IMG/VR virus record: IMGVR_UViG_3300031963_000016
Location: 62,001-126,000 of that record
Length of the DNA stretch: 64,000 nt
Origin: a virus
Direction: 5' to 3' (one strand)
The number at the start of each line of letters is the position of its first letter. Position 1 is the first letter of the stretch. The position numbers were made by a program, and so were the translations under genes. The notes under the pieces are model-generated. The model did no database searches and had not been told where the DNA came from. It was given only the letters and a program-made list of their open reading frames with translations. This document shows positions 9,701-42,448 of the stretch, one piece after another.

Positions 9701-12700
9701 ATGCCTCATACAACAGAGCACTCTTATTTAATTAAATCTAAACTCCATAAAGCATTAGCTGAAGGGGTTTATAAAGATATAGTTAATGGGAACTCATCAT
9801 ATTACTATTTTTTAGGTAAAACTTTAAAATGGAATGTTGATGACAATCCACCATATCCAATAGACAGTTATGCATATGAACGTCTAGTTCGTTCTGACAT
9901 TATTACAATGAAAGAAATTAAATCTTCTGACGTTTCATTAGTTGTTAGAAGAATTGATTGGACTAGCGGACAAGTATATGATATGTATGATGATGAATAT
10001 TCGAATGAAATACTTGGTCTTGATTTAGTCAATGGTGGTAGTGGTTATACTTCTATACCAACTATTACTGTTACTGGTGGTGGTGGATCTGGTGCACAAT
10101 TTACAGCCATTATAGACATTGAACAAGGTAAAATAATTGGAACTGATTTAGTTTCAAAAGGAAGTGGTTATACAAGTGTTCCAACAGTAACTATTACTGG
10201 TGGGGGTGGATCTGGTGGAATATTAACTGCAGTGTTAAATACTGCTCCATCTGGATTTAATAGATTAGAAGATTGTAATTTTTATGTAATGACAGATGAC
10301 TTCAATGTTTACAAATGTCTTGATAATAATAACAATTCTCCTTCCACAAGTAAACCAACAGGAACACAAGTTGAACCATTAAAACTTATAGATGGATATA
10401 TTTGGAAATACATGTATAATGTTCCTATTGGTTTAAGAAATAAATTTTTAACTGGGGATCAAATACCAGTTATTTCTGCTCTAACCAATCAGTTTTATAA
10501 TAGTGGTGCTTTAGAAAATATTACTATTATTAGCAAGGGTTCTGGATATAAATCAGCAAACATTGTAGTTTCTGGTGATGGATTCCGAGAGTCAGATCCT
10601 TCTTTTATTCAAAGCGTTGTAGTTAGTCAGGGTGGTAGCAATTATAATGCTCCAACTGTTACGTTTTCAGATCCATTTTCTACATCGTCTCCATTCTTAT
10701 CTGGTGGACAAGTTTATCTTGGACAAAGAATTAGAAATACAAATAGAGATTTTTATGAAGTAGTCGTTCCTGGAACATTGGGTGGTGTTGAACCAACGCA
10801 TAAATTTGGAGTTGTACAAAACAATAGTATTAATGTTGGAGTCTCTTGGGAAGCAAATTTAGTCGTATCATTAAATCAAAAGATTTATGTCTCTGAAAGA
10901 CTTTATAATGTAACTGTGGCAGGAACATTAGGTGCAAGCCCACCAGTTCATACAACAGGAACAGCTGCAAATGGAACAGCGACTCTTGCATATGTTTCTG
11001 CAGTAACAAGAGGAACAGCATCATTAAAATATATTGGAACCACCGCAACAGGAACTGTTAGTAAAAATCTTTCAAATGAAATAACATCTATTAATCTTAT
11101 AGGTGCAGTTAGAGAAATAACGATCACAAATCCTGGTTCTGGATATATTTCACCACCAAATATTATTATATCTGGTGGTGGTGGCACAGGAGCCGAAGCT
11201 GTTGTTAAAATGAATAACGATTCAGTTCTTTATGCTACCGTAACAAATTCTGGCAGTGGATATACATCTGATCCATCTGTAACATTTGGAACAGCATGGA
11301 CTTCTTCTGGTAATGTTAAATTAAATGATCAAATTTATTCATCTAGTAGACTTTATACTGTAACTAGTGTTTCTCAACCTCTTCGTGTTGAAAGTGCTTA
11401 TTATACAAATAAATCTCTTGATATTAGCGCAAGAGATACTGCACCTAATGGATTATTCTTTTCACCAGATGGAACAAAACTATTTGTAGCTGGAGATACT
11501 GGAAATAATATTATTGCTTATGCATTGTCTATTGCATGGGATATTAGCACTGCTACTTTTGTTAATGAGTCTGGAACTTCTGCAGAAACAAATACTAGAG
11601 GTCTTTTCTTTAGTTCAGATGGAACAAAACTCTATGTTACTGGAACATTAAATGACAGTGTTTATCAATATAATTTAACTACTGCTTGGACTCTGCCAGC
11701 AACATTACCAACACCAACTACATTTTCTTTATCAGGACAAGATAGTGCTCCAAATGGTATTGCTTTTAATGACAATGGTACAAAAATGTATATTGTTGGA
11801 GATACTAATAATAGTGTTTATGAATACAATCTAAGTAGCGCATGGGATATCACTAGTGCTGTTTATGGGACATCGTTTAGCGTAGCTACACAAACTACTG
11901 TACCAACAGATATTAGTTTTAGTAGTGATGGAAAGCATATGTTAATTATTGATTCTGGTAGTGATGCAGTATTTCAATATAATTTAAGTACAGCTTATTC
12001 TATTGCAACAGCTAGCTACTCTAACACATTTGAATTAACTGTAGCAGAATCTCTTCCATCTGGTGTTTATTTACAACCAGGTAATAACTATCTCTATACA
12101 GTTGGTACTGGTCAAGATACTGTTTATCAATATCAAATTCCTCAAAAATCTGTATTAGGAACTACTGCGCCATCGCACCAGAGTGGTTCTGCTACCAATG
12201 GAGATGTAACATTAACATATGCTGGTGCTCCTGCTACTGGTGAAGTTATAAGAAGATATGGTGCTGGATACTCTGCTGCTCCAACAATAACAATTACAGA
12301 TACTACTGGTAGTGGTGCTGAATTCTCAGTATTAACTAACCCATCAGAAGCAATCGTATTACCAATTATAGAAAATGAACAGATCATTGGACTAGCAATA
12401 CCAGACCCAGGCATTGGGTATACTACTGCCTCTACACAAGTTATATCGAGTACTGGAAATGGAGCTCAGTTATTACCTAATTTAACTTTAGGCAATATAC
12501 AATCTCTTCAAGCCAATAATGAAATTTTGACTGTACCAGGAACTATTGATGCAATTAAAATAGTGAGTGGGGGCTATAGTTATGGTTCGGCAACTGTTTC
12601 TATTGTTGGAGATGGAACAGGAGCAACTGCAGAAGCAGTAATTGATTTAGCTACAGGCAAAGTTTCTAAGATAAATATAACAAATAGAGGACAAAATTAT

Positions 12701-13432
12701 ACATTTGCTTATGTTGTCATTTATGGTAATGGAACAGGAGCAACTGCAAGAGCGATTATTTCTCCATATGGTGGACACGGAAAAAATGCTCCAGATGAAT
12801 TATTTGCTAGAACTTTAATGTTTTATACTAATCTTTCTTCAGATTTAAATCAAGGATTATCAGTAAATAATGATTATAGACAGTTTGGTATAATTAAAAA
12901 TCCAAGATCATTTAATAGCACTAGGTTATTTGAAGGAACTATTGGTTCTGGTTGTTATATTGTTGAGGCAGATATAGATTTAAATCAATTTGAAAAAGAT
13001 ATGGATATCTATATCACTAGAGGAATTGTTTGGGCACCAAATACTGCATATACATTAGGGCAACAAATTTACACCTCTTCTAGATTATATTCAGTCACTT
13101 TAGCAGGAACCACTGGATCTACACCACCAAGTCATACACTAGGAAATGCAACAAACGGAACAGCTGTTTTACAATATATCGGATCTTCAATTAGAAGATA
13201 TAGAATTGTTACACTAACATCTACTTCTGCATTAATTCAATCATTAGATAATGACATTCCAACTATTAATGATACTTTCTTAAATTCTGATAATGAAAAT
13301 TTTAAACCTAAAACTATAGGTCTACCAACAGTGGATAAATATTCTGGACAATTAATGTACATTGATAATAAACAAGGGTTTACACCATCAGAAGACGAAA
13401 CTGTTATTCTTAGAACAGTTATTAAATTTTAA
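9701..13432 (+). CDS. 8: Enlarged baseplate wedge protein gp8 with inserted repeat and propeller-like domains
   Basis: The first about 100 residues (LHKALAEGVYKDIVNGNSSYYY, FLGKTLKW, DIITMKEI) and the last about 200 (GHGKNAPDELFARTLMFYTN, NDYRQFGIIKNP, then SGQLMYIDNKQGFTPSEDET and a VILRTVIKF end) match the two ends of gp8, the wedge protein that connects to gp7 and gp10 in T4. T4 gp8 has 334 residues; this one has 1243. The extra 900 residues are modular: at least six GSGY...GGGGSGA beta repeats, three modules of the form QxIYxSxRLYxVTxAGTxG, and about five blades of a propeller-like repeat (about residues 563-820, each with PNGLFFSPDGTKLFVAGD-type cores). The insertions probably protrude from the baseplate rim and may bind host surface glycans; that part is inference. 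Confidence 0.82.
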   Translation: MPHTTEHSYLIKSKLHKALAEGVYKDIVNGNSSYYYFLGKTLKWNVDDNPPYPIDSYAYERLVRSDIITMKEIKSSDVSLVVRRIDWTSGQVYDMYDDEYSNEILGLDLVNGGSGYTSIPTITVTGGGGSGAQFTAIIDIEQGKIIGTDLVSKGSGYTSVPTVTITGGGGSGGILTAVLNTAPSGFNRLEDCNFYVMTDDFNVYKCLDNNNNSPSTSKPTGTQVEPLKLIDGYIWKYMYNVPIGLRNKFLTGDQIPVISALTNQFYNSGALENITIISKGSGYKSANIVVSGDGFRESDPSFIQSVVVSQGGSNYNAPTVTFSDPFSTSSPFLSGGQVYLGQRIRNTNRDFYEVVVPGTLGGVEPTHKFGVVQNNSINVGVSWEANLVVSLNQKIYVSERLYNVTVAGTLGASPPVHTTGTAANGTATLAYVSAVTRGTASLKYIGTTATGTVSKNLSNEITSINLIGAVREITITNPGSGYISPPNIIISGGGGTGAEAVVKMNNDSVLYATVTNSGSGYTSDPSVTFGTAWTSSGNVKLNDQIYSSSRLYTVTSVSQPLRVESAYYTNKSLDISARDTAPNGLFFSPDGTKLFVAGDTGNNIIAYALSIAWDISTATFVNESGTSAETNTRGLFFSSDGTKLYVTGTLNDSVYQYNLTTAWTLPATLPTPTTFSLSGQDSAPNGIAFNDNGTKMYIVGDTNNSVYEYNLSSAWDITSAVYGTSFSVATQTTVPTDISFSSDGKHMLIIDSGSDAVFQYNLSTAYSIATASYSNTFELTVAESLPSGVYLQPGNNYLYTVGTGQDTVYQYQIPQKSVLGTTAPSHQSGSATNGDVTLTYAGAPATGEVIRRYGAGYSAAPTITITDTTGSGAEFSVLTNPSEAIVLPIIENEQIIGLAIPDPGIGYTTASTQVISSTGNGAQLLPNLTLGNIQSLQANNEILTVPGTIDAIKIVSGGYSYGSATVSIVGDGTGATAEAVIDLATGKVSKINITNRGQNYTFAYVVIYGNGTGATARAIISPYGGHGKNAPDELFARTLMFYTNLSSDLNQGLSVNNDYRQFGIIKNPRSFNSTRLFEGTIGSGCYIVEADIDLNQFEKDMDIYITRGIVWAPNTAYTLGQQIYTSSRLYSVTLAGTTGSTPPSHTLGNATNGTAVLQYIGSSIRRYRIVTLTSTSALIQSLDNDIPTINDTFLNSDNENFKPKTIGLPTVDKYSGQLMYIDNKQGFTPSEDETVILRTVIKF

Positions 13433-13446
13433 GGGTAAAATAGAAA

Positions 13447-16400
13447 ATGGCAATTAACTTTAACACTGAACCATATAATGACGATTATTCTGCGGATAAT
13501 GATTTTTATAGAGTTCTTTTCCGTCCAGGATATGCAGTTCAGGCGAGAGAATTAACACAACTTCAAACTATTCTACAACAACAAGTTACTAGATTTGGAG
13601 ATCATGTATTTAAAAATGGTTCAGTAGTTGTTCCAGGAGCGGTAAATTACGATCATCGTGTTCATTTTATCAAATTAGAATCTACATATAATGATTTAAG
13701 CGTTCAATCATATCTAACTCAGTTTAGAAATAAAATTATTACTGGAGTTACCAGCGGAGTTAAATATCGTGTTATTGATACATCGCAGTGCGGATGCGTA
13801 GCAGAACAAATTGAAATACAAACTTTATATTGCAAATTTGAAAAAACTGCTGCAGATGGTTCAACAGCCAGATTTATTCCTGGAGAAAATATTGTAGCGT
13901 ATGAGGCAGATAATCAAACAAGTACAAATCCTCTTCTTTCTGTAAATCAGCAAGGTGATATTTACGCTACAATTAAAAGTTTAGGTGACGCTGGACAATC
14001 TCCGACAAGATATACAGAAAACGCATCATCAGACGTTATGGGATATGCTTTCCAAGTTGATGTTAAGGAAGGTATATATTACATTGATGGCTTTTTTGTT
14101 AGAAATCCAGAGCTGCACCTGTATGTAGGCAGATTTCAGAGTTATCCTTCGGCAAGAGTTGGATTTAAAGTAACTGAAAGTATTGTTACATCAGACGATG
14201 ATGAAACTTTATTAGACAATGCTCAGGGTTCTTTAAACTATGCTGCTCCTGGAGCAGATCGCTATAAAATTTCTTTAGAATTAGTAAAATTACCATTACA
14301 ATCTACAGATTCAATTCGATTTGTTGAACTGTTGCGTGTAATTGATGGTGTTGTTCAATTTAAAATTAATAAATCATCATATGCTGAATTAGAAAAAACA
14401 TTAGCACGTAGAACTCTTGATGAATCTGGTAACTACGAAGTTAACAAGTTTAGACTTTCTGTAAGAGAACATTTAAACAATGGTAGTAACTTTGGTGTAT
14501 ATCCACCAGTTCCAATTACTGGTCCAGTTACTAGCGCAAATACCATTTATGGTGATGAAGATAAATTTGCATTAGTAATCGATCCAGGTAGAGCATATAT
14601 TAGTGGATATGAAGTAGATTCAACAGCTACACAATATCTTGGGATTAACAAAGCCAGAGAAATTATAGTTAACAATGTTACAGATGAGGGTGGACATATT
14701 GTTCGCCTTGAAGACCAACCGATTGGTCTTCAAATGGGAAATTATGCATTAGTAACAAATGTTTATAATGTTCCAGGAGTAACTACATTTGACCAAGTAT
14801 ATCTTGTTAATAGATTAACAGTTACTGCAGGAAATGCTCCTGCATCAAATACTATTGTTGGTACAGCAAGAATAAAATATATTGAGTTGCATTCTTCCGA
14901 TTATAGTGGAGGAACTAGCACTGTGTATAAACTTGGATTATTTGACATTAATATGTCTCCAGGTTATTCTTTCACACATGATGTGAAACAAATAGTAGGC
15001 ACAGGAGCAACTAATAATTTCTCTTGTGATATTAGACCTAGTCTATATCAGTTACAAGGGACTGCTACTTCATCTACTGGTTCTACTACTATTACTGGTG
15101 TTGGTACAAACTTTTCTGAGGTATTAAAAGCAGGTGATGTTATCTATATTAATGGCGTATTTATTGGAAGAGTGAATACAACTCCAACTAATAATCTTTC
15201 ATTAACATTAGCTGCTAATGCTGCAGCAACAGTTGCTGGTGGAAGTATCTCGCAATTTCATGCACAAGTTTATGAACCAGAATTTGATTCACTAGTATTT
15301 CCAGTTGGTGCGCAATTTGTTAAAACTTTAAGAGGATATGACTCTGGAACAGCAACAGATAGTATTAAAAGTAGCCAAGTTACTGTTAAACGTATATTTA
15401 CAGCAGCAGCAGATGGCGCAGGACTTCTTTCTGTACAATTAACTAATCTAAAAGAATTTTTCTTACCAAATGATTTAGATAATTATACTGTATTTGACAA
15501 TGTCACAAAATTGCCAGTAAACATTAGTGCTAGCAATATTACATTTAACATAGTTGGAGATCTAACAGATGATACTCCAAGAAAAACAGTTAATATTAGT
15601 GGTTTAGTTGCAAGTAGATCATATACACTAATTGCTTCTGTTTTACAAATAGAAACTGCAGCATCTGAAAAAACTAAGACTCTCGTTACAAATTATGTTG
15701 GTGATATTATCACTACTAAAAAATCTGTGACAGCAAATATCATTGAGTTAACTAAAGCAGATGCATTGAGAATTAAGAATGTCTATATGACTCCAGGTGA
15801 TTACACTGCATTTAATGCAGGAAATCAAGTTGATATTACAGAGCGTTATACATTAGACGATGGTCAAAGATCAACACATTATACAAATGCTAAGATAATC
15901 TTGAAGCCAGGATTTCAAGTTCCTTCTGGTGCTATTAAAGTTGTTTATGACTATTTTCAAGTTTCTGGATCGGGAAATTATTTCTCCGTTGATTCATATT
16001 CAACTATTCCATATGAAGATATTCCAAGTTATTTTGTAACAGATCCAGTTACAAAAAATAAAACTGAAATATCTCTTACTAATGTATTAGATTTCCGTCC
16101 AATTATTGCTGGAACAAATACTTGGTATCCAGAGATGCCATCACGTGGTAATGATGCAAATGCTCCAATGGCATATTATGTAGGAAGACGAGATAAAATA
16201 GTTTTAGACTCTGTAGGTCGTTTTAATGTAATTGGTGGGGTTCCAGCTAGAGTTCCACAGGAACCAGAAGATCCAAAAGAAGGATTAGTTATTGCTACTC
16301 TCTTTATTCCACCATATACAAAAAATGTTAAAGATATAAAAGTATATCAACGTGACAATCGTAGATATACAATGAAAGATATTGGTAAATTAGATAGAAG

Positions 16401-19400
16401 AATTTCTAACTTAGAATACTACACATCTCTAAACTTACTTGAAAAAGATACAGAAACATTACAAATTAAAGATAGTGTAACTGGGCTTGATAAGTTTAAA
16501 AATGGTTTCGTAGTAGATCAATTTACTGGACATGGTGTTGGCGATGTAAAAAATCCAGATTATAAATGCGCAACTGATAGTGAACAGAGAATTTTACGTC
16601 CAATGCATTTTACAACATCTGTCGATATTGTAGAAGATTTAGCATCTGGCGTAGCACGTTCTTCTGCAAACTATCAAAAAACTGGTGATGTGCTGACATT
16701 ACCATACACAGAAGACATTTTAGTATTTAACCCAAATGCATCTAGAATGATAGATGTAAATCCATATAAAATTGGTGCATTTAGAGGACAAGTTTATCTT
16801 CTTCCAGAAAATGATAGTTGGAAAGATGTTGAGCGTCGTCCAGATTTAAATGTTATTGACGATGACAATTATGATGCTATTGCATTTATGGCGGAAGAAT
16901 TAGGAGTTACTGGAACTAAATGGAACGAATGGCAAACCAACTGGACTGGCTCTTCTTCTACAAGCGTTAATTTTGAGACTACATCTGGATTTGTCACACA
17001 AGGATTCCAAACAACTACTACAGTAACTACTGGAACTTCCTCACAGTCAGGAACTCAAACTACATTACAATCTAGTGTCAATAGTCAAGATTATGGTGAT
17101 AGAGTTGTTGATGTTGCCTATGCTCCATATATGAGAGAGAGAGCAATAACATTTATTGCTAAAAATCTAAAACCAAATACAATTTTTTATCCTTTCTTTG
17201 ACACTACTGATGTTGCTGAATATGTAATGCCAGCACAAGTTTTACAGGTAACTGCCTCTTCACCAAATACATTTTTAGAGTTTGAAACAGGTGATCTACA
17301 AGATAAAGTTCTTTTTGATGATCCATTTAGAACTACATGGAATGGAGTTGCAGAAGCAGCATTTCAAATTGGGGATGTTGTTCAAAATGCTGCACATGCT
17401 GGACCAGTAAATATTACAGCTATTAGTCATTTAACTGCACCAGGATATTCGTTTAACTTAACTGTTGCTAACTCTACTGGAATTGAACCTGGTCACCATG
17501 TTATCATTTACAACTTAGCAAATTTTAGAACACATACTCACTTTGAAGATCGTGTAGATTATCAGATTCCAATGCCACAAGGTAATATTACTCCTGGTGG
17601 AAATACTTCACAAAGTTTAAATATGGAAGTGTTTGAAGTTTCTGCTAAATCTGGCAATGTTTTAACACTAAAACGCAGAGATGATTCTATTATTCCTGCT
17701 TTTGAAGCATATGATACAACTCGTTATATTGCAGAGACACCAACACGTCTTGGACGACTATATCGTTTAAGAGCGTCAGGTGTGGTTGTTTATGCAGGAA
17801 CAGAGTATGGTAATCGTGAAACAACATCAAATAAACCAGTAACGCAAGATATTCATATTGTTAATATGAAACATGCATTTGCTTTAAATGATGTTATTGT
17901 TGGCAGAACACAAATTTCTACAGGCAGTTATAATCGTGCTACTGTAAATGCTATCAATGGCGTTACAACTGCAGCTAATGTGGCAGCTGCAAGAAAGAAA
18001 ATGGGCGGCACTATTAGAACAGATGATACTGGAACTGCTGTTGGAGTATTTTATCTTCCTAATAATGATACTCTTCGCTTTAGAACTGGTGAGCGTGAAT
18101 TTAAGTTAATTGATAATATATCAAATACTGATGCCGCATTTGATTCTATTGGAAAAACAAACTTTAATTCTCAAGGTATTTCTCTAACAATGGAAAAAAC
18201 TATTGTTAGTAGTCGTGAAGCAGAATTTGCTCAGGATCGTTTATTCCAAGAAATTCCTGTTCGTAGAGAGTCTGTTTCTACTCGTCTTCTTTATACTATC
18301 GATAATACTCCAGTTTGGTCTGGAGGAGGTGGTGATGGTGGTGGCGATGGAGGTGGTGGGCATGATCCATTAGCACAAACATTTACAGTTGTATCTAAAG
18401 GTGGATGTTTTGTTACTTCAGTAGATTTATTTTTCTCAGAACAAGGAACTCGTCCAGTTATTGTAGAAGTGAGAAATACTAGCAATGGCGTTCCTTCTTC
18501 GAAGATATTACCATTCTCAACTGTGATTAAAAATCCAGTTGATATTAAAACATCAACAAATGGTTCTATTGCAACAACATTTACATTTGATTCTCCACTT
18601 TATTTACAAGATGGTGAAACATATGCTCTAGTTGTAAAAACAGATGAACCAGGATGTCAGGTATTCTGCTCAGAACTAGGACAAACAGATATATTAACTA
18701 ATAATATTATCGCTACACAACCATTAACAGGTTCTTTATATCTCTCACAGAATAGTCAAGAGTTTCAAATTAATCCTCTTCTTGATATAAAATTTACTTT
18801 AAGAAAAGCTGTATTTGATACTAGTGTAACTTCTCAAGTTAACTTGAGAACTACTCCGCCAGTAAGATTTAAATTACCAAATGATCCAATTGAAATTACA
18901 CCAAATACTACAAAAGTTCGTGTATATGCTCCAAATCATGGCCATGTAGCTGGCGACATAGTAGTATTAGATGGATTTATTATGGGGTATCGTTATGGTG
19001 GAGCTACGCAGTCTTATGGATTTGATGCTATGATGTTAAATGGAGAGCATACTATATTAACAGATGGATTAGATAAAGATTCTTTTGTTATTGATATTGA
19101 TATTACTGATGATTCTAACAATAGTATTCTTTCTGGCACTACTGCTGATTTTGTTAAGGGTGAATATGGAGGTTCTGGAATCACTTGTACTCGTGGAGCA
19201 TTTGCAGATGCTGTATATTTAAAAACTAGTGATTTATCTTTCCAAGATACATCATTAAATTACTATGTTGATTCTCAGGATTTAACAGGTACATTTAGTG
19301 GTTTTATGCCAATGGTTTCAAATGCTAACTATTTCTTTCCAACAAGAAAACAAGTTAAAGCATATGAAAATCAAACAGAAATTAGTGGTGTGAAAAAATC

Positions 19401-20481
19401 TTCATTAAGATTCCAGGCAAGAATGAGAAGTGATAATCCTAATGTATCACCTGCGATCGATCTACAACAACTAGCGTCATATGTGATCGCAAATTTAGTA
19501 GACGATTATACTCAAAATGAAATTAATGTTACAGAAATTGATTCTAGAGAATTACTAGGTGGTGGAGATATCATTTCTGGAGATGTAACTATTTCAGGCA
19601 CAGGACAGATTACATGTTCTACTGCTTCTGCAGTAGTTAATGGAACTAGCACTCTATTCCAAACTCAAGGAAAAGTTAAAGTTGGTAATATATTAAAAAG
19701 ATTATCTGATGGTGCAACTATTGGTACAGTATTAACTATTGATAGTGATACTCAGATTACTCTTACCGCAAATGCTGCAATAACTATTGCATCTAATGCT
19801 AGTTATACCATTTCCGCTGCACCAACACTATCATTCTCTAATTCAGGAGGATTGGGCTTAATAGCAACAAATATTGATACTGCTGATAATGCTCTTACCA
19901 ATGCTACTATCGGTAAATATATTACTATTAGTAATGCTCACTCAAATGTAAATGGAACATATGTTGTTAGAGATGTAAAAGTAATCAGTGATACAGTAAC
20001 CTTTGCAGGTAATGCAGAATCTGACGCTGTTAACATTTATGTTTATCCACAATTTACTGGATCCGCAAGTATTGATATGATTACTGATCCAGATTTCTCT
20101 ATTGTACAACATGATAAATATGTTGAAGATTTTGCTCCTGTAGGAAGCACTAATGCTGCAAACTACATGACAAGAACTTTATCTTTAGTGGATCCAGCAG
20201 ATAATATTAAATTAATATTTGATGCATCTATCGTATCTTTAACTGATGTTAAAGTATATTATAGAGTATGGGAAGGTGAAGTAGATCTTAAGAAATTGCC
20301 TTGGAATGATTCTGAATATGTAAATCCTCTTTACAATAGTGAGGGAGTTTATACAGAAAGAACAATAGATATTAGTAGTTCTTCTCCATTTAAAAATGTT
20401 CAAGTTAAACTTGTTATGAGATCTTCTGATCCATCTAAAGTTCCTTTAATTAAGAATCTTAGACTTATTGCTTATTCATGA
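13447..20481 (+). CDS. Giant DUF4815-type baseplate/fibre-base virion protein
   Basis: At 2344 residues this is the largest gene in the window. The N-terminus (NFNTEPYNDDYSADNDFYRV, then LFRPGYAVQARELTQLQTIL) is the hallmark of the DUF4815 family, large virion proteins found beside the wedge genes of cyanophage-like myoviruses. Later parts contain two copies of a beta module ending in LTLTANAA (about residues 537-608 and 2048-2124), a glycine-rich linker near residue 1620 (GGGGDGGGDGGGGHDPLAQTF), and a C-terminal DPADNIKLIFDASIVS segment. The HDPLAQTF motif after a glycine hinge is typical of phage proteins that connect a baseplate to fibres. It may replace gp9/gp10 functions of T4, since those are absent here. 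Its stop overlaps the next ATG (ATGA). Confidence 0.8.
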   Translation: MAINFNTEPYNDDYSADNDFYRVLFRPGYAVQARELTQLQTILQQQVTRFGDHVFKNGSVVVPGAVNYDHRVHFIKLESTYNDLSVQSYLTQFRNKIITGVTSGVKYRVIDTSQCGCVAEQIEIQTLYCKFEKTAADGSTARFIPGENIVAYEADNQTSTNPLLSVNQQGDIYATIKSLGDAGQSPTRYTENASSDVMGYAFQVDVKEGIYYIDGFFVRNPELHLYVGRFQSYPSARVGFKVTESIVTSDDDETLLDNAQGSLNYAAPGADRYKISLELVKLPLQSTDSIRFVELLRVIDGVVQFKINKSSYAELEKTLARRTLDESGNYEVNKFRLSVREHLNNGSNFGVYPPVPITGPVTSANTIYGDEDKFALVIDPGRAYISGYEVDSTATQYLGINKAREIIVNNVTDEGGHIVRLEDQPIGLQMGNYALVTNVYNVPGVTTFDQVYLVNRLTVTAGNAPASNTIVGTARIKYIELHSSDYSGGTSTVYKLGLFDINMSPGYSFTHDVKQIVGTGATNNFSCDIRPSLYQLQGTATSSTGSTTITGVGTNFSEVLKAGDVIYINGVFIGRVNTTPTNNLSLTLAANAAATVAGGSISQFHAQVYEPEFDSLVFPVGAQFVKTLRGYDSGTATDSIKSSQVTVKRIFTAAADGAGLLSVQLTNLKEFFLPNDLDNYTVFDNVTKLPVNISASNITFNIVGDLTDDTPRKTVNISGLVASRSYTLIASVLQIETAASEKTKTLVTNYVGDIITTKKSVTANIIELTKADALRIKNVYMTPGDYTAFNAGNQVDITERYTLDDGQRSTHYTNAKIILKPGFQVPSGAIKVVYDYFQVSGSGNYFSVDSYSTIPYEDIPSYFVTDPVTKNKTEISLTNVLDFRPIIAGTNTWYPEMPSRGNDANAPMAYYVGRRDKIVLDSVGRFNVIGGVPARVPQEPEDPKEGLVIATLFIPPYTKNVKDIKVYQRDNRRYTMKDIGKLDRRISNLEYYTSLNLLEKDTETLQIKDSVTGLDKFKNGFVVDQFTGHGVGDVKNPDYKCATDSEQRILRPMHFTTSVDIVEDLASGVARSSANYQKTGDVLTLPYTEDILVFNPNASRMIDVNPYKIGAFRGQVYLLPENDSWKDVERRPDLNVIDDDNYDAIAFMAEELGVTGTKWNEWQTNWTGSSSTSVNFETTSGFVTQGFQTTTTVTTGTSSQSGTQTTLQSSVNSQDYGDRVVDVAYAPYMRERAITFIAKNLKPNTIFYPFFDTTDVAEYVMPAQVLQVTASSPNTFLEFETGDLQDKVLFDDPFRTTWNGVAEAAFQIGDVVQNAAHAGPVNITAISHLTAPGYSFNLTVANSTGIEPGHHVIIYNLANFRTHTHFEDRVDYQIPMPQGNITPGGNTSQSLNMEVFEVSAKSGNVLTLKRRDDSIIPAFEAYDTTRYIAETPTRLGRLYRLRASGVVVYAGTEYGNRETTSNKPVTQDIHIVNMKHAFALNDVIVGRTQISTGSYNRATVNAINGVTTAANVAAARKKMGGTIRTDDTGTAVGVFYLPNNDTLRFRTGEREFKLIDNISNTDAAFDSIGKTNFNSQGISLTMEKTIVSSREAEFAQDRLFQEIPVRRESVSTRLLYTIDNTPVWSGGGGDGGGDGGGGHDPLAQTFTVVSKGGCFVTSVDLFFSEQGTRPVIVEVRNTSNGVPSSKILPFSTVIKNPVDIKTSTNGSIATTFTFDSPLYLQDGETYALVVKTDEPGCQVFCSELGQTDILTNNIIATQPLTGSLYLSQNSQEFQINPLLDIKFTLRKAVFDTSVTSQVNLRTTPPVRFKLPNDPIEITPNTTKVRVYAPNHGHVAGDIVVLDGFIMGYRYGGATQSYGFDAMMLNGEHTILTDGLDKDSFVIDIDITDDSNNSILSGTTADFVKGEYGGSGITCTRGAFADAVYLKTSDLSFQDTSLNYYVDSQDLTGTFSGFMPMVSNANYFFPTRKQVKAYENQTEISGVKKSSLRFQARMRSDNPNVSPAIDLQQLASYVIANLVDDYTQNEINVTEIDSRELLGGGDIISGDVTISGTGQITCSTASAVVNGTSTLFQTQGKVKVGNILKRLSDGATIGTVLTIDSDTQITLTANAAITIASNASYTISAAPTLSFSNSGGLGLIATNIDTADNALTNATIGKYITISNAHSNVNGTYVVRDVKVISDTVTFAGNAESDAVNIYVYPQFTGSASIDMITDPDFSIVQHDKYVEDFAPVGSTNAANYMTRTLSLVDPADNIKLIFDASIVSLTDVKVYYRVWEGEVDLKKLPWNDSEYVNPLYNSEGVYTERTIDISSSSPFKNVQVKLVMRSSDPSKVPLIKNLRLIAYS

Positions 20482-22393: not shown

Positions 22394-23311
22394 ATGGCTG
22401 CTATTACTACGAGAGCTATAGAAGCGATAACAGGCACTGGCACTATAACCGCAACTACATCTAGTGCGACTGTTACTGGCTCTGGCACTCAGTTTACAAC
22501 TCAAACATCTCCTGGGTTTATTTTAAAAACTACTGCAGGAGTAACGATAGGAATTGTTTCTAGCATAACAAGTGCGACATCTTTAACATTAACTGCTAAT
22601 GCTGCAGTTAATGTTACTAGTGAAACATATGGAATTGTTACTCCAGGTGTAACTTTAAAAAATTCTCCACTTTCTAACACTGAAATAGACAACAATTTTT
22701 TACAATTAGATTCTACCAAACTAGAACGAACTGCAAATTTAAGTGATCTTTCCAATGCTTCTACTGCTAGAACAAATCTTGGATTAGCTATAGGAACTAA
22801 CGTACAAGCATACGATGCTGACTTGGGTGCTTTGGCAGGATTAACTACAACAGGATATATTGTTAGAACTGGTGCAGGAACTGCATCTACTAGAACATTT
22901 ACTGGTTCCGTTAATGAAATTCTTATTAGTAATGCTGATGGCGTATCTGGTAATACTAGTATAACCATTGGTTCTAATATCCCAAGATTAAATGCTGCTA
23001 CAAATGTGTTTTCTGGAGACATAACTGCAGCAAACTTTAATTCATCATCTGATCAGAATTTAAAAAGAAATATTAAACCAATTGAAAATGCTACAGATAC
23101 TCTAAAACAATTAGAGGGTGTATACTTTGAATGGATTAAAACTGAAAAACCATCTTATGGTGTTATAGCGCAGAAATTAGAAGAAGTTCTTCCTGAATTA
23201 GTTGTAACACAGGATGGTGTAAAATCTGTAAACTATCTCGGCTTAGTTGCCTTTTTAATTAATGCAGTTAAGGAATTAGACTCCAGAGTGCAAGAATTAG
23301 AATCTAAATAA
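22394..23311 (+). CDS. Tail fibre with C-terminal S74 self-cleaving chaperone domain
   Basis: 305 residues. Residues 1-90 form the LTLTANAA beta module also present twice in the 2344-aa protein; a SNTEIDNNFLQL attachment-type motif and a short shaft follow. The last about 90 residues are the intramolecular chaperone of peptidase family S74: Ser219-Asp-Gln-Asn-Leu-Lys224 supplies the Ser/Lys pair, then GVYFEWIKTEKPSYGVIAQK, VLPELV and a closing coiled coil (INAVKELDSRVQELE). Such domains trimerise the fibre, help it fold and then cut themselves off just before the Ser. Cleavage is expected at Ser218/Ser219 by analogy with endosialidase and T5 fibres. Confidence 0.88.
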   Translation: MAAITTRAIEAITGTGTITATTSSATVTGSGTQFTTQTSPGFILKTTAGVTIGIVSSITSATSLTLTANAAVNVTSETYGIVTPGVTLKNSPLSNTEIDNNFLQLDSTKLERTANLSDLSNASTARTNLGLAIGTNVQAYDADLGALAGLTTTGYIVRTGAGTASTRTFTGSVNEILISNADGVSGNTSITIGSNIPRLNAATNVFSGDITAANFNSSSDQNLKRNIKPIENATDTLKQLEGVYFEWIKTEKPSYGVIAQKLEEVLPELVVTQDGVKSVNYLGLVAFLINAVKELDSRVQELESK

Positions 23312-23632: not shown

Positions 23633-24595
23633 ATGACTGTTAATATCTCAGCATTGGAAACAATTATCCAATCAAAAATGAACGCTTTAACAGCGGGGAG
23701 TGATAGTAAAGAAGTTATCTATCTCGCTAAAGCATTAGAAGCACTTGACAGCGGTGTTTTAACTACTTATGCTTTATACTCTAGTTTACCTGCTGCAGCC
23801 GATTCTACAGGACGTGTTGTATATGTCGCAGATACTTCTAAAGTGTATTATTCTAATGGTTCTACATGGGTTGTTTTATCTACTGCTCAAGATCCAAATT
23901 TCCAAATTAATACTCTTGGTGTAGAAGTATTAGAGACTGAAGATTATCTATTAATTACTAATGCTGTTACTAGCTCTGAAGATTGGGATTTAATTACTAC
24001 AACTCCAACTTCCACTGCAGATAATTTTCAACTTTCTTTAGTAAATAAAGGAACACAGGGTGATATTTATATCGATCCAACTTGGTTTACTTTTACAGTT
24101 TATGATGGTGTTACACGTGCTGGTGTTAAACATTTAGCTGCACATAAAAATAACATTGATTTTGATAATATGACTGCAACCCAGCAAGGTGTAGTTCATC
24201 TTATTAAAAATGATAATACAACTATACCGCTAGGTACTCCAACTCCTATACCATTTACTTCTGCAAGAATTCTTGATACTAGATTAGGTTCTTTTAGTGC
24301 AGGTTATTACACTACTAATTATGAAGGTTGGTATAAAGTAGCATTTTCTGCTTGGACCGATGGCGATGTTTACTTTATGCTTGGTGGTTCTTTATCTGCT
24401 CTAGATAATAATACAGTTACTGCTCCAGAAAACTGGGTTTCTGTTACTCGTGTTGTTTATTTGCAAAAATACGAAGCACTAAGATTGTATGCTATGTCAG
24501 ATGGTATCGGTACGTTAAGCACTAGAATTGTTTATGGTAATGATTACAACCATCCAAATATGACTCAAATGACTTTAGAGTATCTTGGAAAATAA
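23633..24595 (+). CDS. Fibre/adhesin protein with beta-sandwich-like C-terminus
   Basis: 320 residues, 16 bp downstream of the previous gene. The N-terminus is helical with a heptad tendency (ALETIIQSKMNALTAGSD), followed by a YSSLPAAADSTGRVVYVADT, SKVYYSNGSTWV module that is widespread in phage fibres. The C-terminal about 120 residues (GWYKVAFSAWTDGDVYFMLG, then YLQKYEALRLYAMSDG) look like a jelly-roll or C1q/TNF-type sandwich, a fold used as receptor-binding tips. That fold assignment is by eye only. Likely a host-binding subunit encoded together with the three adhesin paralogs that follow. Confidence 0.7.
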   Translation: MTVNISALETIIQSKMNALTAGSDSKEVIYLAKALEALDSGVLTTYALYSSLPAAADSTGRVVYVADTSKVYYSNGSTWVVLSTAQDPNFQINTLGVEVLETEDYLLITNAVTSSEDWDLITTTPTSTADNFQLSLVNKGTQGDIYIDPTWFTFTVYDGVTRAGVKHLAAHKNNIDFDNMTATQQGVVHLIKNDNTTIPLGTPTPIPFTSARILDTRLGSFSAGYYTTNYEGWYKVAFSAWTDGDVYFMLGGSLSALDNNTVTAPENWVSVTRVVYLQKYEALRLYAMSDGIGTLSTRIVYGNDYNHPNMTQMTLEYLGK

Positions 24596-24618: not shown

Positions 24619-25299
24619 ATGTCAAAACAAGTAAGATTTAGAAGAGGTACTACTGCACAGCATTCTACTTTTACTGGTCCAGCTGGAGAAATTACAGTAG
24701 ATACAGATAAAGATGTTTTAGTAGTTCATAATGGTGTAACTGCTGGTGGTATACCAATTGCTCGTGCAGATCGTCCACGTGGATGGACTAGAACTGAAAT
24801 TTTTACAGCCAATGGTACTTGGACACAAACTGGTAAAACAGATATAAAAAGAATAATTGTTACCGCTCACGGAGGTGGTGCTGGTGGTTCTACAAACGGA
24901 TTAACTGGTGGTTCACAAGGTGGAGTTGGCACTGTGGTTTTAGAAACTTCAGCTATCACTACAACTGTAGCTGTAACAATTGGTTCAGGTGGTGCAGCTG
25001 GTGCAGCTGGTGGTACAACTTCTTTTGGAACTTATATTAGTGCAACTGGTGCTGCAGCATCTTCATCTGGCACTCCTGGCGCACCTGGAACACCAAGCGG
25101 TACAGGCGTTATAAATCTTGGGTCTCAGGGTGCTATATCATCTGGTTCATCTAACAATGGTGGTCAAGGTGGTGGACTAGGTGGTGGCGGTGGTAGCACT
25201 GCAATTGCTGGAAAGGGAATTTTTGGTAGTGGTGCTTCTGGAAATGCCGCTGGGTCAACAGGTTCCATTATTGTGCAAGAAATATATGGATTTGTATAA
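24619..25299 (+). CDS. Glycine-rich adhesin paralog 1 (Mtd-like N-terminus)
   Basis: 226 residues and first of three tandem paralogs. Residues 1-50 (VRFRRGTTAQHSTFTGPAGE, ITVDTDKDVLVVHNG) match the small N-terminal domain found on Mtd-type tropism determinants and many phage fibres. Next comes a shared WTQTGKTDIKRIIVTAHGGGAGG core, and then about 120 residues of glycine-rich sequence ending in a hydrophobic IIVQEIYGFV. Gly-rich loops on a rigid core are how T-even gp38-type adhesins present variable receptor contacts. The three copies differ mostly in the glycine-rich part. A distal fibre or receptor-binding role is inferred. Confidence 0.76.
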   Translation: MSKQVRFRRGTTAQHSTFTGPAGEITVDTDKDVLVVHNGVTAGGIPIARADRPRGWTRTEIFTANGTWTQTGKTDIKRIIVTAHGGGAGGSTNGLTGGSQGGVGTVVLETSAITTTVAVTIGSGGAAGAAGGTTSFGTYISATGAAASSSGTPGAPGTPSGTGVINLGSQGAISSGSSNNGGQGGGLGGGGGSTAIAGKGIFGSGASGNAAGSTGSIIVQEIYGFV

Positions 25300-25316
25300 T
25301 ATAAAGGATAGCTAAT

Positions 25317-26018
25317 ATGTCAAAACAAGTAAGATTTAGACGAGGTACTACAGCGGAACACGCTACTTTTACAGGAATTGCAGGTGAAGTTACTGTAGAT
25401 ACTACTAAAGTTGTTCCTGTAGTGCATAATGGAAGTACAGCAGGTGGCATTCCTTTACAAAGAGAAGATCGTCCACGTGGTTTTACAAGAAGAGAAATTT
25501 TCACGGCTAGCGGTACTTGGACACAAACTGGTAAAACAGACTTAAAACGTGTTAGAGTAACTGCCTATGGAGGTGGTGCTGGTGGTGCTAGTGGTAATAG
25601 CGGTGGTGGTGGAGCAGGTGGTATTGGAATGGTTATGCTTGAAACATCTTCATTAACTACTAACGTATCCGTAACAATTGGTTCAGGTGGTGGAGTAGGT
25701 GTCGCAGGTGGTACAACTTCTTTTGGAACTTATATTAGTGCAACTGGTGGTGCAACAGGTTCTGGTCGATCTGGTGGAGCTGGCGGAACTGCCTCTGGAA
25801 CTAATGTGCTTATTTTAGGTGGTCAAGGTGGTGGTAATGCTATGAATGGATCTGGATGGGCTGGTGGCCATGGAAATAACTATACAGCTGCTGGTGGTGG
25901 TCCAGGTGGTGGAAGATACGGACAAGCAGCCAATGGAATTTTTGGTGGCGGTGGTGGCGGAACTGCAGCAGGAGTTGCTGGGTGTGTTATAGTTGAAGAA
26001 ATTTATGGCATGGTTTAA
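25317..26018 (+). CDS. Glycine-rich adhesin paralog 2
   Basis: 233 residues, 17 bp after paralog 1, with the same plan: VRFRRGTTAEHATFTGIAGE head, WTQTGKTDLKRVRVTAYGGG core, glycine-rich variable part and a CVIVEEIYGMV end. A 41-bp stretch (25707-25747) is identical in all three paralogs, and the first 35 bases equal those of paralog 3. The glycine-rich part differs in length and composition from its neighbours, as expected if these loops diversify by recombination between copies. Its own ribosome site (AAGGATAG) precedes the ATG. Confidence 0.76.
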   Translation: MSKQVRFRRGTTAEHATFTGIAGEVTVDTTKVVPVVHNGSTAGGIPLQREDRPRGFTRREIFTASGTWTQTGKTDLKRVRVTAYGGGAGGASGNSGGGGAGGIGMVMLETSSLTTNVSVTIGSGGGVGVAGGTTSFGTYISATGGATGSGRSGGAGGTASGTNVLILGGQGGGNAMNGSGWAGGHGNNYTAAGGGPGGGRYGQAANGIFGGGGGGTAAGVAGCVIVEEIYGMV

Positions 26019-26032
26019 TAGGAGTGATATAA

Positions 26033-26767
26033 ATGTCAAAACAAGTAAGATTTAGACGAGGTACTACTGCTCAACACGCAACTTTTACTGGTGCATTAGG
26101 AGAGGTTACAGTAGATACAGACAAAAATGTAACTGTTGTTCATGATGGTACACTAGCTGGTGGTTATCCTTCTGGCAGAGAAGATCGTCCACGTGGATGG
26201 ACTAGAATGGAAGTTTTTACTACTGTTGGTGCTAATACTTGGACACAAACTGGTAAAACAGATTTAAGACGTGTTAGAGTAACTGCTTACGGTGGAGGTG
26301 GTGGTGGTTCTACTAGCGGATCTGGTGGTGGTGGAGGAGCAGGTGGAGTTGGTAGTGTAGTTTTAGAAGTTTCTTCATTAACTACTAACGTAACAGCAAC
26401 AGTTGGAGCAGGTGGTGCAGCTGGCGCAGCTGGTGGTACAACTTCTTTTGGAACTTATATTAGTGCAACTGGCGGTGCAGCAGGTTCTGGAAATGCACCT
26501 GGTCAGGGTGGAACTGCTTCTGGAACTGGTGTAATTATTTTGGGTGGTCAAGGTGGTGCTCCAGGAGATTCAATGTCTCAGGGAACAATTTATTATGGAT
26601 ATGGAGGTGGAGAGGGTTATAGTGATTCCCAATCTAATCGTGGTGGAGGACTAGGTGGTGGTAATACAGGAACCAATGCTAAAGGAATTCTAGGATCAGG
26701 TGGTGGTCGAAATGCTGCAGGATCTGCAGGTTGTGTTATCGTAGAAGAAATCTATGGATTAAGTTAA
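26033..26767 (+). CDS. Glycine-rich adhesin paralog 3
   Basis: 244 residues, the longest of the triplet, with a WTQTGKTDLRRVRVTAYGGG core and an aromatic-containing insert (TIYYGYGGGEGYSDSQSNRG) not found in the other two, which would change the exposed tip. The end, CVIVEEIYGLS, is nearly identical to paralog 2. Three intact copies suggest either simultaneous display of alternative adhesins or a reservoir for recombination; the sequence does not tell which. Confidence 0.76.
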   Translation: MSKQVRFRRGTTAQHATFTGALGEVTVDTDKNVTVVHDGTLAGGYPSGREDRPRGWTRMEVFTTVGANTWTQTGKTDLRRVRVTAYGGGGGGSTSGSGGGGGAGGVGSVVLEVSSLTTNVTATVGAGGAAGAAGGTTSFGTYISATGGAAGSGNAPGQGGTASGTGVIILGGQGGAPGDSMSQGTIYYGYGGGEGYSDSQSNRGGGLGGGNTGTNAKGILGSGGGRNAAGSAGCVIVEEIYGLS

Positions 26768-26783: not shown

Positions 26784-26999
26784 GTGTATAATATTGCTCA
26801 TATTAAAAATGGTGTTGTAGAAAATACTTGTGCTTGGGATACAGTTCCATCTTCTCAAGATTATGTTGGTGGATATGAATTAGTAAATATTACTGATAGT
26901 CCAGTTGGTATTGGTTGGGAATATGCAGAAGGTGTATTTACTGATCCAAATGATCTAACACGAGTGTGGACAGTTCCTGCTGAAACGCCAGCAGAGTAA
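26784..26999 (+). CDS. Small fibre-accessory-like protein, GTG start
   Basis: 71 residues, using a GTG start codon 6 bp after an AAGGAGAA ribosome site; no in-frame ATG lies nearby. The NIAHIKNGVVENTCAWD start and the PVGIGWEYAEGVFTDPND motif are typical of small proteins encoded behind phage fibres, often annotated as fibre assembly or hypothetical. It closes the adhesin cluster, since a strong terminator follows 18 bp later. Confidence 0.68.
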   Translation: MYNIAHIKNGVVENTCAWDTVPSSQDYVGGYELVNITDSPVGIGWEYAEGVFTDPNDLTRVWTVPAETPAE

Positions 27000-40231: not shown

Positions 40232-42448
40232 ATGCCGTTTCAATTATCTCCAGGCGTTGCAGTCGTAGAAAAAGATTTCACTTCTATCGTTCCAGCAGTT
40301 TCTAGCTCTATTGGTGCTTTTGCTGGTGCGTTTGCATGGGGTCCAGTTATGGAACCTGTCACAGTTACCTCAGAAAACGAGTTAGTTCGTCGTTTTGGTA
40401 AACCTAATGATAGTAATGCAAATTCTTTCTTCACAGCAGCTAACTTTTTATCATACACTAACAATTTATTATTAAATCGTGCAGATGCAGGACACTTAAA
40501 TGCTGTTGCTATTTTAACAGGTAGTTTAACTGGTATTGCAGTAAACAGTGCTGGAAGCGGCTATGTTTCTACTGCTTCTCCTCCAACTGTAACTATTGGT
40601 GCCCCAGATGCTGTCGGTGGTACTCAAGCTACTGCTACTGCTACTCTTTCTGGTGGTGGTGTTTCTGCAATTACTGTTAGTGGTGAGGGTAACACTGGTT
40701 ACACAACTGCTACTGTTACTATTACTCCTGCTACGGGTGATACTGGAACAGGTGCTACTGCCACTGCCAATATCTCAGGTGGTGTTATCACTAGTATTAC
40801 TATTACAAATCCAGGCGAAGGCTACAAACTGTTGCCAGTAGTTAATGTTACTGGAGATGGTGGTGGTGTAACAACAACTGTAACACTTTCTACTTCTTCA
40901 ATAACAGGAATTACAATTACGAATGCTGGTTCTGGATATGACAATCCTCCTTCAGTAACTATCGGTGCACCACCAACTGGTACAGTTGCAACAGCTACTG
41001 CTACTATTAGTCAAAACTTAGGTGTAAAGATTATGAATGGAGAGCATTATCTTCAGTCATATTCTACTGGTGCTGCTATTGTTGGTGAATTTGCTGCAAA
41101 ATATCCAGGTACATTAGGTAACTCTCTTCATGTAACAATGGCTGATGCAAATACATACTCTGGTTGGACTACTGTATTAAATGGTGTAACTATTAACTGC
41201 GCTGCAGAATTTGAAGGTGCACCAGGAACATCTGACTATGCCGCATCAGTTAATGGAACTAATGATGAGCTACATATTTTAGTATTTGATGAAGATGGTT
41301 TAATTACTGGAACAAAAGGAACTGTTTTAGAAAAATTTGCTTTCGTTTCAAAAGCCTCTGATGCTAAAAAATCAGATGGTACTAATAATTATTATAAAGA
41401 TGTATTAAATTCTCGTTCAGAATACGTTTGGTGGATGGATCCACCAGCTGCAATCACTGGATTAGGAACTAACTGGGGTCAACCAGCACAAGGTGCATCA
41501 TTTAAAAACTTATCAGCTGCTGTTAAGCGTTCTCTTTCTGGTGGCACTGATGATTATGCATTAACAGATGGCGAACAACAATCTGCATATACTTTATTTG
41601 CTAATGCAGAAGTATATGATATTAGTTTAGTTCTTCTTGGCAAAGCAAAAGCATCTGTCGCACAATCTGTTATTAACAATGTCTGTGAAACAAGACTAGA
41701 CTGCGTAGCATTTATCTCTCCACAAAATGTATCAACACATGATATTATTATTGGATCTACTGATAATGAAGTTACGCAGATTAATGCATATAGAAATGCA
41801 TTGTCAAGCACATCATACGCTGTTCTTGATTCTGGCTACAAATATCAGTATGATCGTTACAATGATAAGTATCGTTATATTCCATTAAATGGTGATGTAG
41901 CTGGTCTTTGCGCACGCACTGACTATACAAACGATCCATGGTTCTCTCCAGGTGGTCTAAATCGTGGACAGATCAAAAATGTTGTACGTCTTGCTGTACA
42001 ACCTAATAAAACAATGCGTGATAATCTTTACAAAAATGGTGTTAACCCTGTGGTTACATTCCCAGGTGAAGGTACTGTTCTGTTTGGAGATAAAACTCTA
42101 CTTGCAAAACCAAGTGCATTCGATCGTATTAACGTGCGTCGTCTGTTTATCGTTCTTGAAAAAGCAATTGCAACTGCTGCTAAATTCCAGTTGTTTGAAT
42201 TTAATGATAGTTTCACACGTGCTCAGTTTAAGAATCTAGTAGAGCCATTCCTCCGTGATGTTCAGGGTCGTCGTGGTATTACAGATTTCGTAGTTAAGTG
42301 CGATGAATCTAACAATACTGGTGAAGTTATCGATCGTAACGAATTCGTTGCTGATATCTTTATTAAGCCAAATCGTTCAATCAACTTTATTACTCTGACA
42401 TTTGTTGCTGCTCGTTCTGCGATTAACTTCTCAGAAATTGGTGCTTAA
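40232..42448 (+). CDS. 18: Contractile tail sheath gp18 with inserted repeat domain
   Basis: 738 residues (T4 gp18: 659). The N-terminus (LSPGVAVVEKDFTSIVPAVS, SSIGAFAGAFAWGP) and C-terminal half (DYTNDPWFSPGGLNRGQIKN, FVVKCDESNNTGEVIDRNEF, IKPNRSINFITLTFVA) are textbook gp18. Residues about 90-260 are an insertion of four beta repeats (GSGYVSTASPPTVTIGAP, GNTGYTTATVTITPATGDTG, GEGYKLLPVVNVTG, GSGYDNPPSVTIGAP) of the same type as in gp8 and gp14. Since the conserved core continues normally, the insertion most likely stands out as a surface domain on every sheath subunit. Confidence 0.95.
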   Translation: MPFQLSPGVAVVEKDFTSIVPAVSSSIGAFAGAFAWGPVMEPVTVTSENELVRRFGKPNDSNANSFFTAANFLSYTNNLLLNRADAGHLNAVAILTGSLTGIAVNSAGSGYVSTASPPTVTIGAPDAVGGTQATATATLSGGGVSAITVSGEGNTGYTTATVTITPATGDTGTGATATANISGGVITSITITNPGEGYKLLPVVNVTGDGGGVTTTVTLSTSSITGITITNAGSGYDNPPSVTIGAPPTGTVATATATISQNLGVKIMNGEHYLQSYSTGAAIVGEFAAKYPGTLGNSLHVTMADANTYSGWTTVLNGVTINCAAEFEGAPGTSDYAASVNGTNDELHILVFDEDGLITGTKGTVLEKFAFVSKASDAKKSDGTNNYYKDVLNSRSEYVWWMDPPAAITGLGTNWGQPAQGASFKNLSAAVKRSLSGGTDDYALTDGEQQSAYTLFANAEVYDISLVLLGKAKASVAQSVINNVCETRLDCVAFISPQNVSTHDIIIGSTDNEVTQINAYRNALSSTSYAVLDSGYKYQYDRYNDKYRYIPLNGDVAGLCARTDYTNDPWFSPGGLNRGQIKNVVRLAVQPNKTMRDNLYKNGVNPVVTFPGEGTVLFGDKTLLAKPSAFDRINVRRLFIVLEKAIATAAKFQLFEFNDSFTRAQFKNLVEPFLRDVQGRRGITDFVVKCDESNNTGEVIDRNEFVADIFIKPNRSINFITLTFVAARSAINFSEIGA

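Follow-up and report, generated by a model that had tools for sequence, protein, structure and literature searches.

Local exchange of scaffold tracts within genomes among three tandem putative adhesin genes with position-specific tips in uncultured T4-like phages

Phage adhesin loci are usually treated as hotspots of swapping and diversification, and in the case of gp38 recombination between conserved motifs reportedly swaps adhesin specificity, as Tetart et al. are said to have found in 1998. The polyglycine-sandwich gp38 adhesins of T-even phages and S16 (S16 gp38, 6F45; T2; PP01), where the literature invokes recombination between conserved motifs (PMC12529663, PMC12892980, PMC6851490), resemble the proteins analyzed here: both belong to T4-like phages and intersperse hypervariable segments among glycine-rich motifs. 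Tail fibre gp24 of cyanophage Pam3 (7ypx, 7yfw), which combines a TNF-like and a glycine-rich domain, is the closest match in fold to a model of the third of them, and PMC9608196 describes for it a conserved glycine-rich stem and a hypervariable distal tip. The DGR-diversified tropism determinant Mtd of Bordetella phage (1yu0-1yu4) shares with all three proteins its N-terminal domain. Finally, tandem multigene families under concerted evolution offer a parallel at the level of DNA, since paralogues within one genome are closer at synonymous sites in local blocks.

The locus described here lies in a window of 64,000 nucleotides, corresponding to bases 62,001-126,000 of an IMG/VR record of 161,711 bp. 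The virus is an uncultured T4-like phage of bacteria. Its record has genes of T4-like type for baseplate wedge, sheath, portal, terminase and major capsid protein, the last of which is closest to those of Methylophilales phage Melnitz and of Synechococcus and Pelagibacter myoviruses (63-65% identity). The three genes under study and their immediate neighbours are the following:

23633..24595, + strand: single-copy 320-aa neighbour gene, directly upstream of the triplet in every case
24619..25299, + strand: putative adhesin gene 1, 226 aa; Mtd_N and glycine-rich domain; position-1 orthologue in nine relatives
25317..26018, + strand: putative adhesin gene 2, 233 aa; Mtd_N and glycine-rich domain; position-2 orthologue in nine relatives
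26033..26767, + strand: putative adhesin gene 3, 244 aa; Mtd_N and Gly_rich_2 (PF21722 over the cut-off)
26784..26999, + strand: small 71-aa ORF immediately downstream of the triplet; relatives have syntenic ORFs of 73-87 aa

The three putative adhesin ORFs are complete and arranged head to tail, with gaps of 17 and 14 nt, and their pairwise nucleotide identity is 68-73%, with identical stretches.

All three proteins begin with Mtd_N (PF18454, E 1e-14 to 2e-13). Their first 54 residues match crystal structures of Mtd (1yu0-1yu4; 1yu0, E 1e-15). In tblastn against phage records, the N-terminus returned Mtd_N matches only, and the full-length protein returned no hit, probably owing to low-complexity filtering. 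Beyond this module lies a glycine-rich region of tail-fibre type (PHROG tail families), with a glycine content of 24-28% overall and 28-33% past residue 53, in which glycine-rich motifs with invariant Gly columns are separated by hypervariable segments, among them the variable HV2. Gly_rich_2 (PF21722; cut-off 24.3 bits) scores 25.5 bits in copy 3 and 16.2 in copy 1, and is not listed for copy 2. The full-length AlphaFold2 model of copy 3 has a pLDDT of 80.7, its Mtd_N part being of low confidence, and a model of residues 54-244 built with 32 family sequences reaches 92.8; the best solved fold match of the latter is the glycine-rich Pam3 fibre (E 1.2e-7, TMq 0.56). Judging by synteny in the tail region and by the PHROG tail families, the three proteins are probably host- or receptor-binding tail or baseplate fibre proteins, in which the Mtd_N module would serve for attachment to the virion and the glycine-rich stretches with their hypervariable segments would form a putative receptor-binding tip. 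A DGR-diversified tropism determinant is not supported as far as the record reaches. No match to the C-type-lectin variable region was detected in the three proteins, and none to reverse transcriptase (RVT_1) in the 161.7-kb record, which may be a fragment; the lack of a retroelement suggested in the preliminary description is therefore borne out as far as tested.

Relatives were gathered by a related-locus search and by ORF searches, and all of them are environmental IMG/VR contigs. Nine other distinct phages present three complete copies (L001, L002, L003, L004, L086, L089, L090, L093 and L095), and across the ten phages, including the window genome (W), the same three genes are found in the same order and neighbourhood, with a DNA identity between genomes that averages 64-83% at the same position. 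Every complete locus has three copies, and a search through the single-copy 320-aa neighbour, which recovered the same phage group, revealed no copy-number change by unequal crossover among the contigs that are long enough. Both the Mtd_N module and the tip cluster by position across the ten genomes, and hence the duplications that generated the triplet predate the divergence of these phages. A recent duplication followed by uneven divergence, in which the identical blocks would simply be sequence that has not yet mutated, is extremely improbable on this evidence. The level of identity within the window and its identical stretches would fit such a scenario, but Mtd_N and the tips are closer to same-position genes of other phages than to the remaining copies of the same phage, which implies older duplications, divergence at synonymous sites is high outside the core (pS 0.39-0.58), and the conservation of the triplet in ten genomes refutes it.

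Assembly of metagenomes can in principle blur paralogues. The locus of L003 is base-identical to that of a second IMG/VR contig (L088), and L004 is matched by L005 and L092 with single-base differences only; this agreement between independent contigs makes assembly error unlikely for those loci, and the blocks of the window genome rest on one assembly. The chimeric junctions that the preliminary description had proposed to look for in strain variants did not appear in the near-identical contigs L004, L005 and L092, which differ by single bases only, so that no ongoing conversion was caught there.

The upstream neighbours are syntenic in all relatives as far as the contigs reach, and so are the downstream ones, with the exception of L093 past the first small ORF. 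After position 6376 of L093, genes of 108, 193 and 219 aa replace the 111-aa, 83-aa and MASIIRIKRS genes that relatives carry beside the triplet. A more distant contig (L094) encodes near its end only two related Mtd_N-type glycine-rich proteins (104-832 and 1098-1814), and the genes around them differ. Upstream of the triplet, a gene ending in an S74 chaperone (window 22394-23311) begins, in W, L086, L090 and L093, with an additional domain of about 65 aa (GTGTITSTTSSxTVTGxGTSFT...), and is found without it (237-238 aa) in L001, L003, L004, L089 and L095, so that even the close relatives L089 and L090 differ. Similar stretches occur in a 2344-aa protein (window 13447-20481), and the extra domain looks as if it had been gained and lost repeatedly. 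A 1243-aa protein (window 9701-13432) matches the baseplate wedge (phrog_438) in its C-terminal part and the SGL and lactonase beta-propeller families at about residues 540-820. This protein, a second baseplate protein (window 7324-9204) and the tail sheath (window 40232-42448) have PHROG matches in common (phrog_701, 19630 and 4406, partly 460 and 708), which suggests that several virion proteins contain an insertion of one recurrent domain.

Within the window genome, the 41-bp identity among three complete paralogs that had been described previously is exact, and two further stretches (26 bp and 24 bp) are identical in all copies:

24619..24642, 25317-25340 and 26033-26056, + strand: 24-bp identical start block (first 24 bp of each gene), homogenised within genomes
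24817..24842, + strand: 26-bp identical block (TWTQTGKTD), copy 1; near-identical in relatives too
25515..25540, + strand: 26-bp identical block, copy 2; triple-identical
26237..26262, + strand: 26-bp identical block, copy 3; triple-identical
25009..25049, + strand: 41-bp identical block (GGTTSFGTYISATG), copy 1; same in all three copies
25707..25747, + strand: 41-bp identical block, copy 2; same in all three copies
26432..26472, + strand: 41-bp identical block, copy 3; same in all three copies

When the three proteins were kept fixed and their synonymous codons redrawn according to window or three-gene usage (5,000 draws each, runs past codon 9), the longest triple-identical run had a median of 9 (window usage) or 11 (gene usage) and a maximum of 24 or 29, and a triple run of 41 nt was reached in 0 of 5,000 redraws under either codon usage. 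The comparison of synonymous divergence inside and outside the blocks, as put forward in the preliminary description, points in the same direction, with a pS of 0.06 and a pN of 0 among the W copies in the 41-bp block and a pS of 0.39-0.58 in segments outside the core. The 41-bp block is specific to the window genome: its identity to the best same-position orthologue is 0.74-0.91, and an exact 41-mer scan of IMG/VR gave no match beyond this genome. The 26-bp TWTQ block, on the other hand, is near-identical to same-position copies elsewhere, most comparisons giving 0.96-1.00. The same holds for L086 and L093, and the block may be partly ancestral in the group formed by W, L086 and L093. The start block could partly reflect a constraint on translation start.

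Exchange between copies was assessed at codon columns with the same amino acid, by comparing the codon identity of paralogues within a genome with that of different-position paralogues between genomes. Genome labels were permuted within each position; the ten genomes, some of them related, are here treated as exchangeable, and kinship is handled only through a subset of one genome per clade. The within-genome synonymous excess is local: it affects the first 16 codons, TWTQTGKTDLKR and the GGTTSFGTYISATGG core, and is weaker in the last 19 codons. Codon identity within and between genomes is, respectively, 0.81 and 0.74 at the start (P=0.001), 0.66 and 0.57 at TWTQ (P=0.002), 0.66 and 0.55 in the SFG core (P=0.001), 0.71 and 0.57 in the exact 41-bp block (P=0.001) and 0.62 and 0.56 in the end block (P=0.016). 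There is no such excess in codons 16-56 of Mtd_N (0.59 vs 0.59, P=0.66), in codons 56-64, along the glycine stretch at codons 84-112 (0.55 vs 0.54) or in the tip (152-240; 0.52 vs 0.52, P=0.48). Codon usage predicts nearly equal values within and between genomes and thus provides no explanation for the excess in the blocks. Leaving out the window genome, where the block had first been spotted, the 41-bp block still yields 0.67 against 0.57 (P=0.001), and the pattern persists with one genome per clade, the end block falling to P=0.083.

The length of identical runs tells a similar story, the longest averaging 27.8 nt within genomes and 17.2 nt between them; runs of at least 35 nt occur in 10 of 30 within-genome pairs and in 0 of 270 between-genome pairs. 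The pair of copies that has the block in common also varies by genome (for instance, 1=2=3 in W, 2=3 in L003 and L001, and 1=2 in L004). Shared tracts span 23-47 nt; most of them are confined to the conserved scaffold, and the tips are not part of them. In L001, L086 and L093, a small number of shared runs (26-30 nt) fall inside Mtd_N, where an overall excess is absent. The uniform divergence without exchange that the preliminary description had named as its counter-prediction was not found in the ten genomes, and short-tract gene conversion, that is, concerted evolution among the copies of the triplet, is well supported.

The same data bear on the idea that the blocks stay identical not through exchange but through purifying selection at the level of DNA or RNA, be it on an overlapping signal, on RNA structure or on codon choice. 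The GGTTSFGTYISATG protein motif is strongly conserved and codons close to gene starts are often constrained, as this explanation would have it, but other genomes encode the block with other codons (identity 0.56-0.57 between genomes vs 0.71 within), the IMG/VR scan found the exact 41-mer nowhere else, and pS in the block is 0.46 among orthologues of close relatives, higher than the 0.38 found among paralogues of one genome. We regard this explanation as highly improbable; synonymous divergence between genomes refutes it for the 41-bp block, a refutation that does not cover the first 16 codons.

The preliminary description had also proposed that such exchange yields host-range variation, and this is where the data depart from it. 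The hypervariable tips, and Mtd_N beyond its first 16 codons, stay position-specific: in HV2, copies of one genome have an amino acid identity of 0.171, copies from different genomes one of 0.176 if their positions differ and one of 0.311 if they occupy the same position, and the tip tree requires only 4 position changes. The tip evolves faster, as pN/pS among close orthologues is 0.10-0.16 in the N-terminal part and 0.39 in the tip; the latter value is no proof of positive selection. A diversity generator driven by recombination, in which the blocks are maintained to shuffle tips among copies or with other phages and thereby alter host range, would agree with the gp38-like architecture, in which conserved glycine-rich or scaffold motifs flank variable segments, and with the fact that scaffold exchange does occur. 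However, position-faithful tips with no codon-sharing excess, the scarcity of position changes in the tip tree, the constancy of copy number among complete loci and the lack of excess in the glycine stretch 84-112 all argue against it, and none of the ten genomes presents copy-2 tips on copy 3 or between-phage mosaics that break in the blocks, making such a generator very unlikely. With HV2 tips unexchanged between copies, always three in number, and tracts of 23-47 nt that lack tips, conversion is probably a by-product of phage recombination, and not a host-switching machine.

Taken jointly, the evidence makes it likely that this is an old triplet of non-redundant adhesins whose scaffold has been repeatedly converted within genomes and whose tips are independent. 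Each protein consists of an Mtd_N module, a beta-stranded scaffold and glycine-rich stretches with hypervariable segments. The copies split before the ten phages did, and scaffold tracts of about 20-50 nt would later have been copied repeatedly between the tandem genes inside a genome. T4-like phages recombine intensively during replication, and the route could be homologous recombination in phage replication leading to non-crossover gene conversion; a RecA-family protein encoded at G000:138295-139083 of the source record is, by analogy, a candidate UvsX. Short non-crossover conversion between adjacent genes would account for both the fixed copy number and the short tracts. Conversion would be opportunistic, with tracts landing where the conserved protein sequence holds the copies similar; since this is where they sit, the selection for recombination offered in the preliminary description as an alternative to gene conversion is unneeded, and repeated within-genome synonymous homogenisation in ten phages upholds the conversion part of that proposal. 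The tips and Mtd_N would be mostly spared, either because divergence and indels stop pairing or because selection removes converted variants. Indels and divergence in the tips may explain the lack of conversion there, whereas Mtd_N is as conserved as the core and yet has no overall excess, which suggests selection for position-specific attachment. As an outcome, the scaffold would evolve in concert and the tips independently. A stronger version, in which conversion actively keeps the scaffold compatible (for example, for co-assembly or a shared assembly partner) and the tips and attachment modules are protected, in aquatic T4-like phages, seems rather unlikely; if true, it would provide a retroelement-free means of carrying three separate receptor specificities on a single evolving scaffold.

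In the scaffold, the exchange measured here among the tandem adhesins has the opposite effect to that usually assumed for such loci, and it leaves the tips untouched. Ten genomes with three positions and short tracts constitute a clean natural dataset on the minimal homology for conversion in T4-like phages, and on which conversions selection tolerates. Trees or host-range inferences derived from such proteins will blend segments of different histories.

A survey of the open-access literature turned up no account of conversion within a genome between paralogous phage tail genes, though this does not prove that none exists, and the locus differs from each of the systems it resembles. Compared with Mtd and DGRs, it has the N-terminal domain without the C-type-lectin match or a reverse transcriptase in the record. 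In Pam3 gp24, with a sequence identity of about 25% to the adhesins analyzed here, the shaft is alpha-helical and there is a trimeric chaperone, and the accessible text of its description (PMC9608196) mentions no tandem array. Relative to tandem multigene families under concerted evolution in general, the process is here confined to short scaffold tracts, in three stable copies of a phage structural locus. In contrast to gp38, lastly, there are three tandem paralogues, the N-terminus is Mtd_N instead of a gp37-capping helical bundle, the confident model has the Pam3 fibre as its best PDB match, S16 gp38 being absent from the fold matches, and exchange within the genome makes the scaffold more uniform and does not reshuffle the tips.
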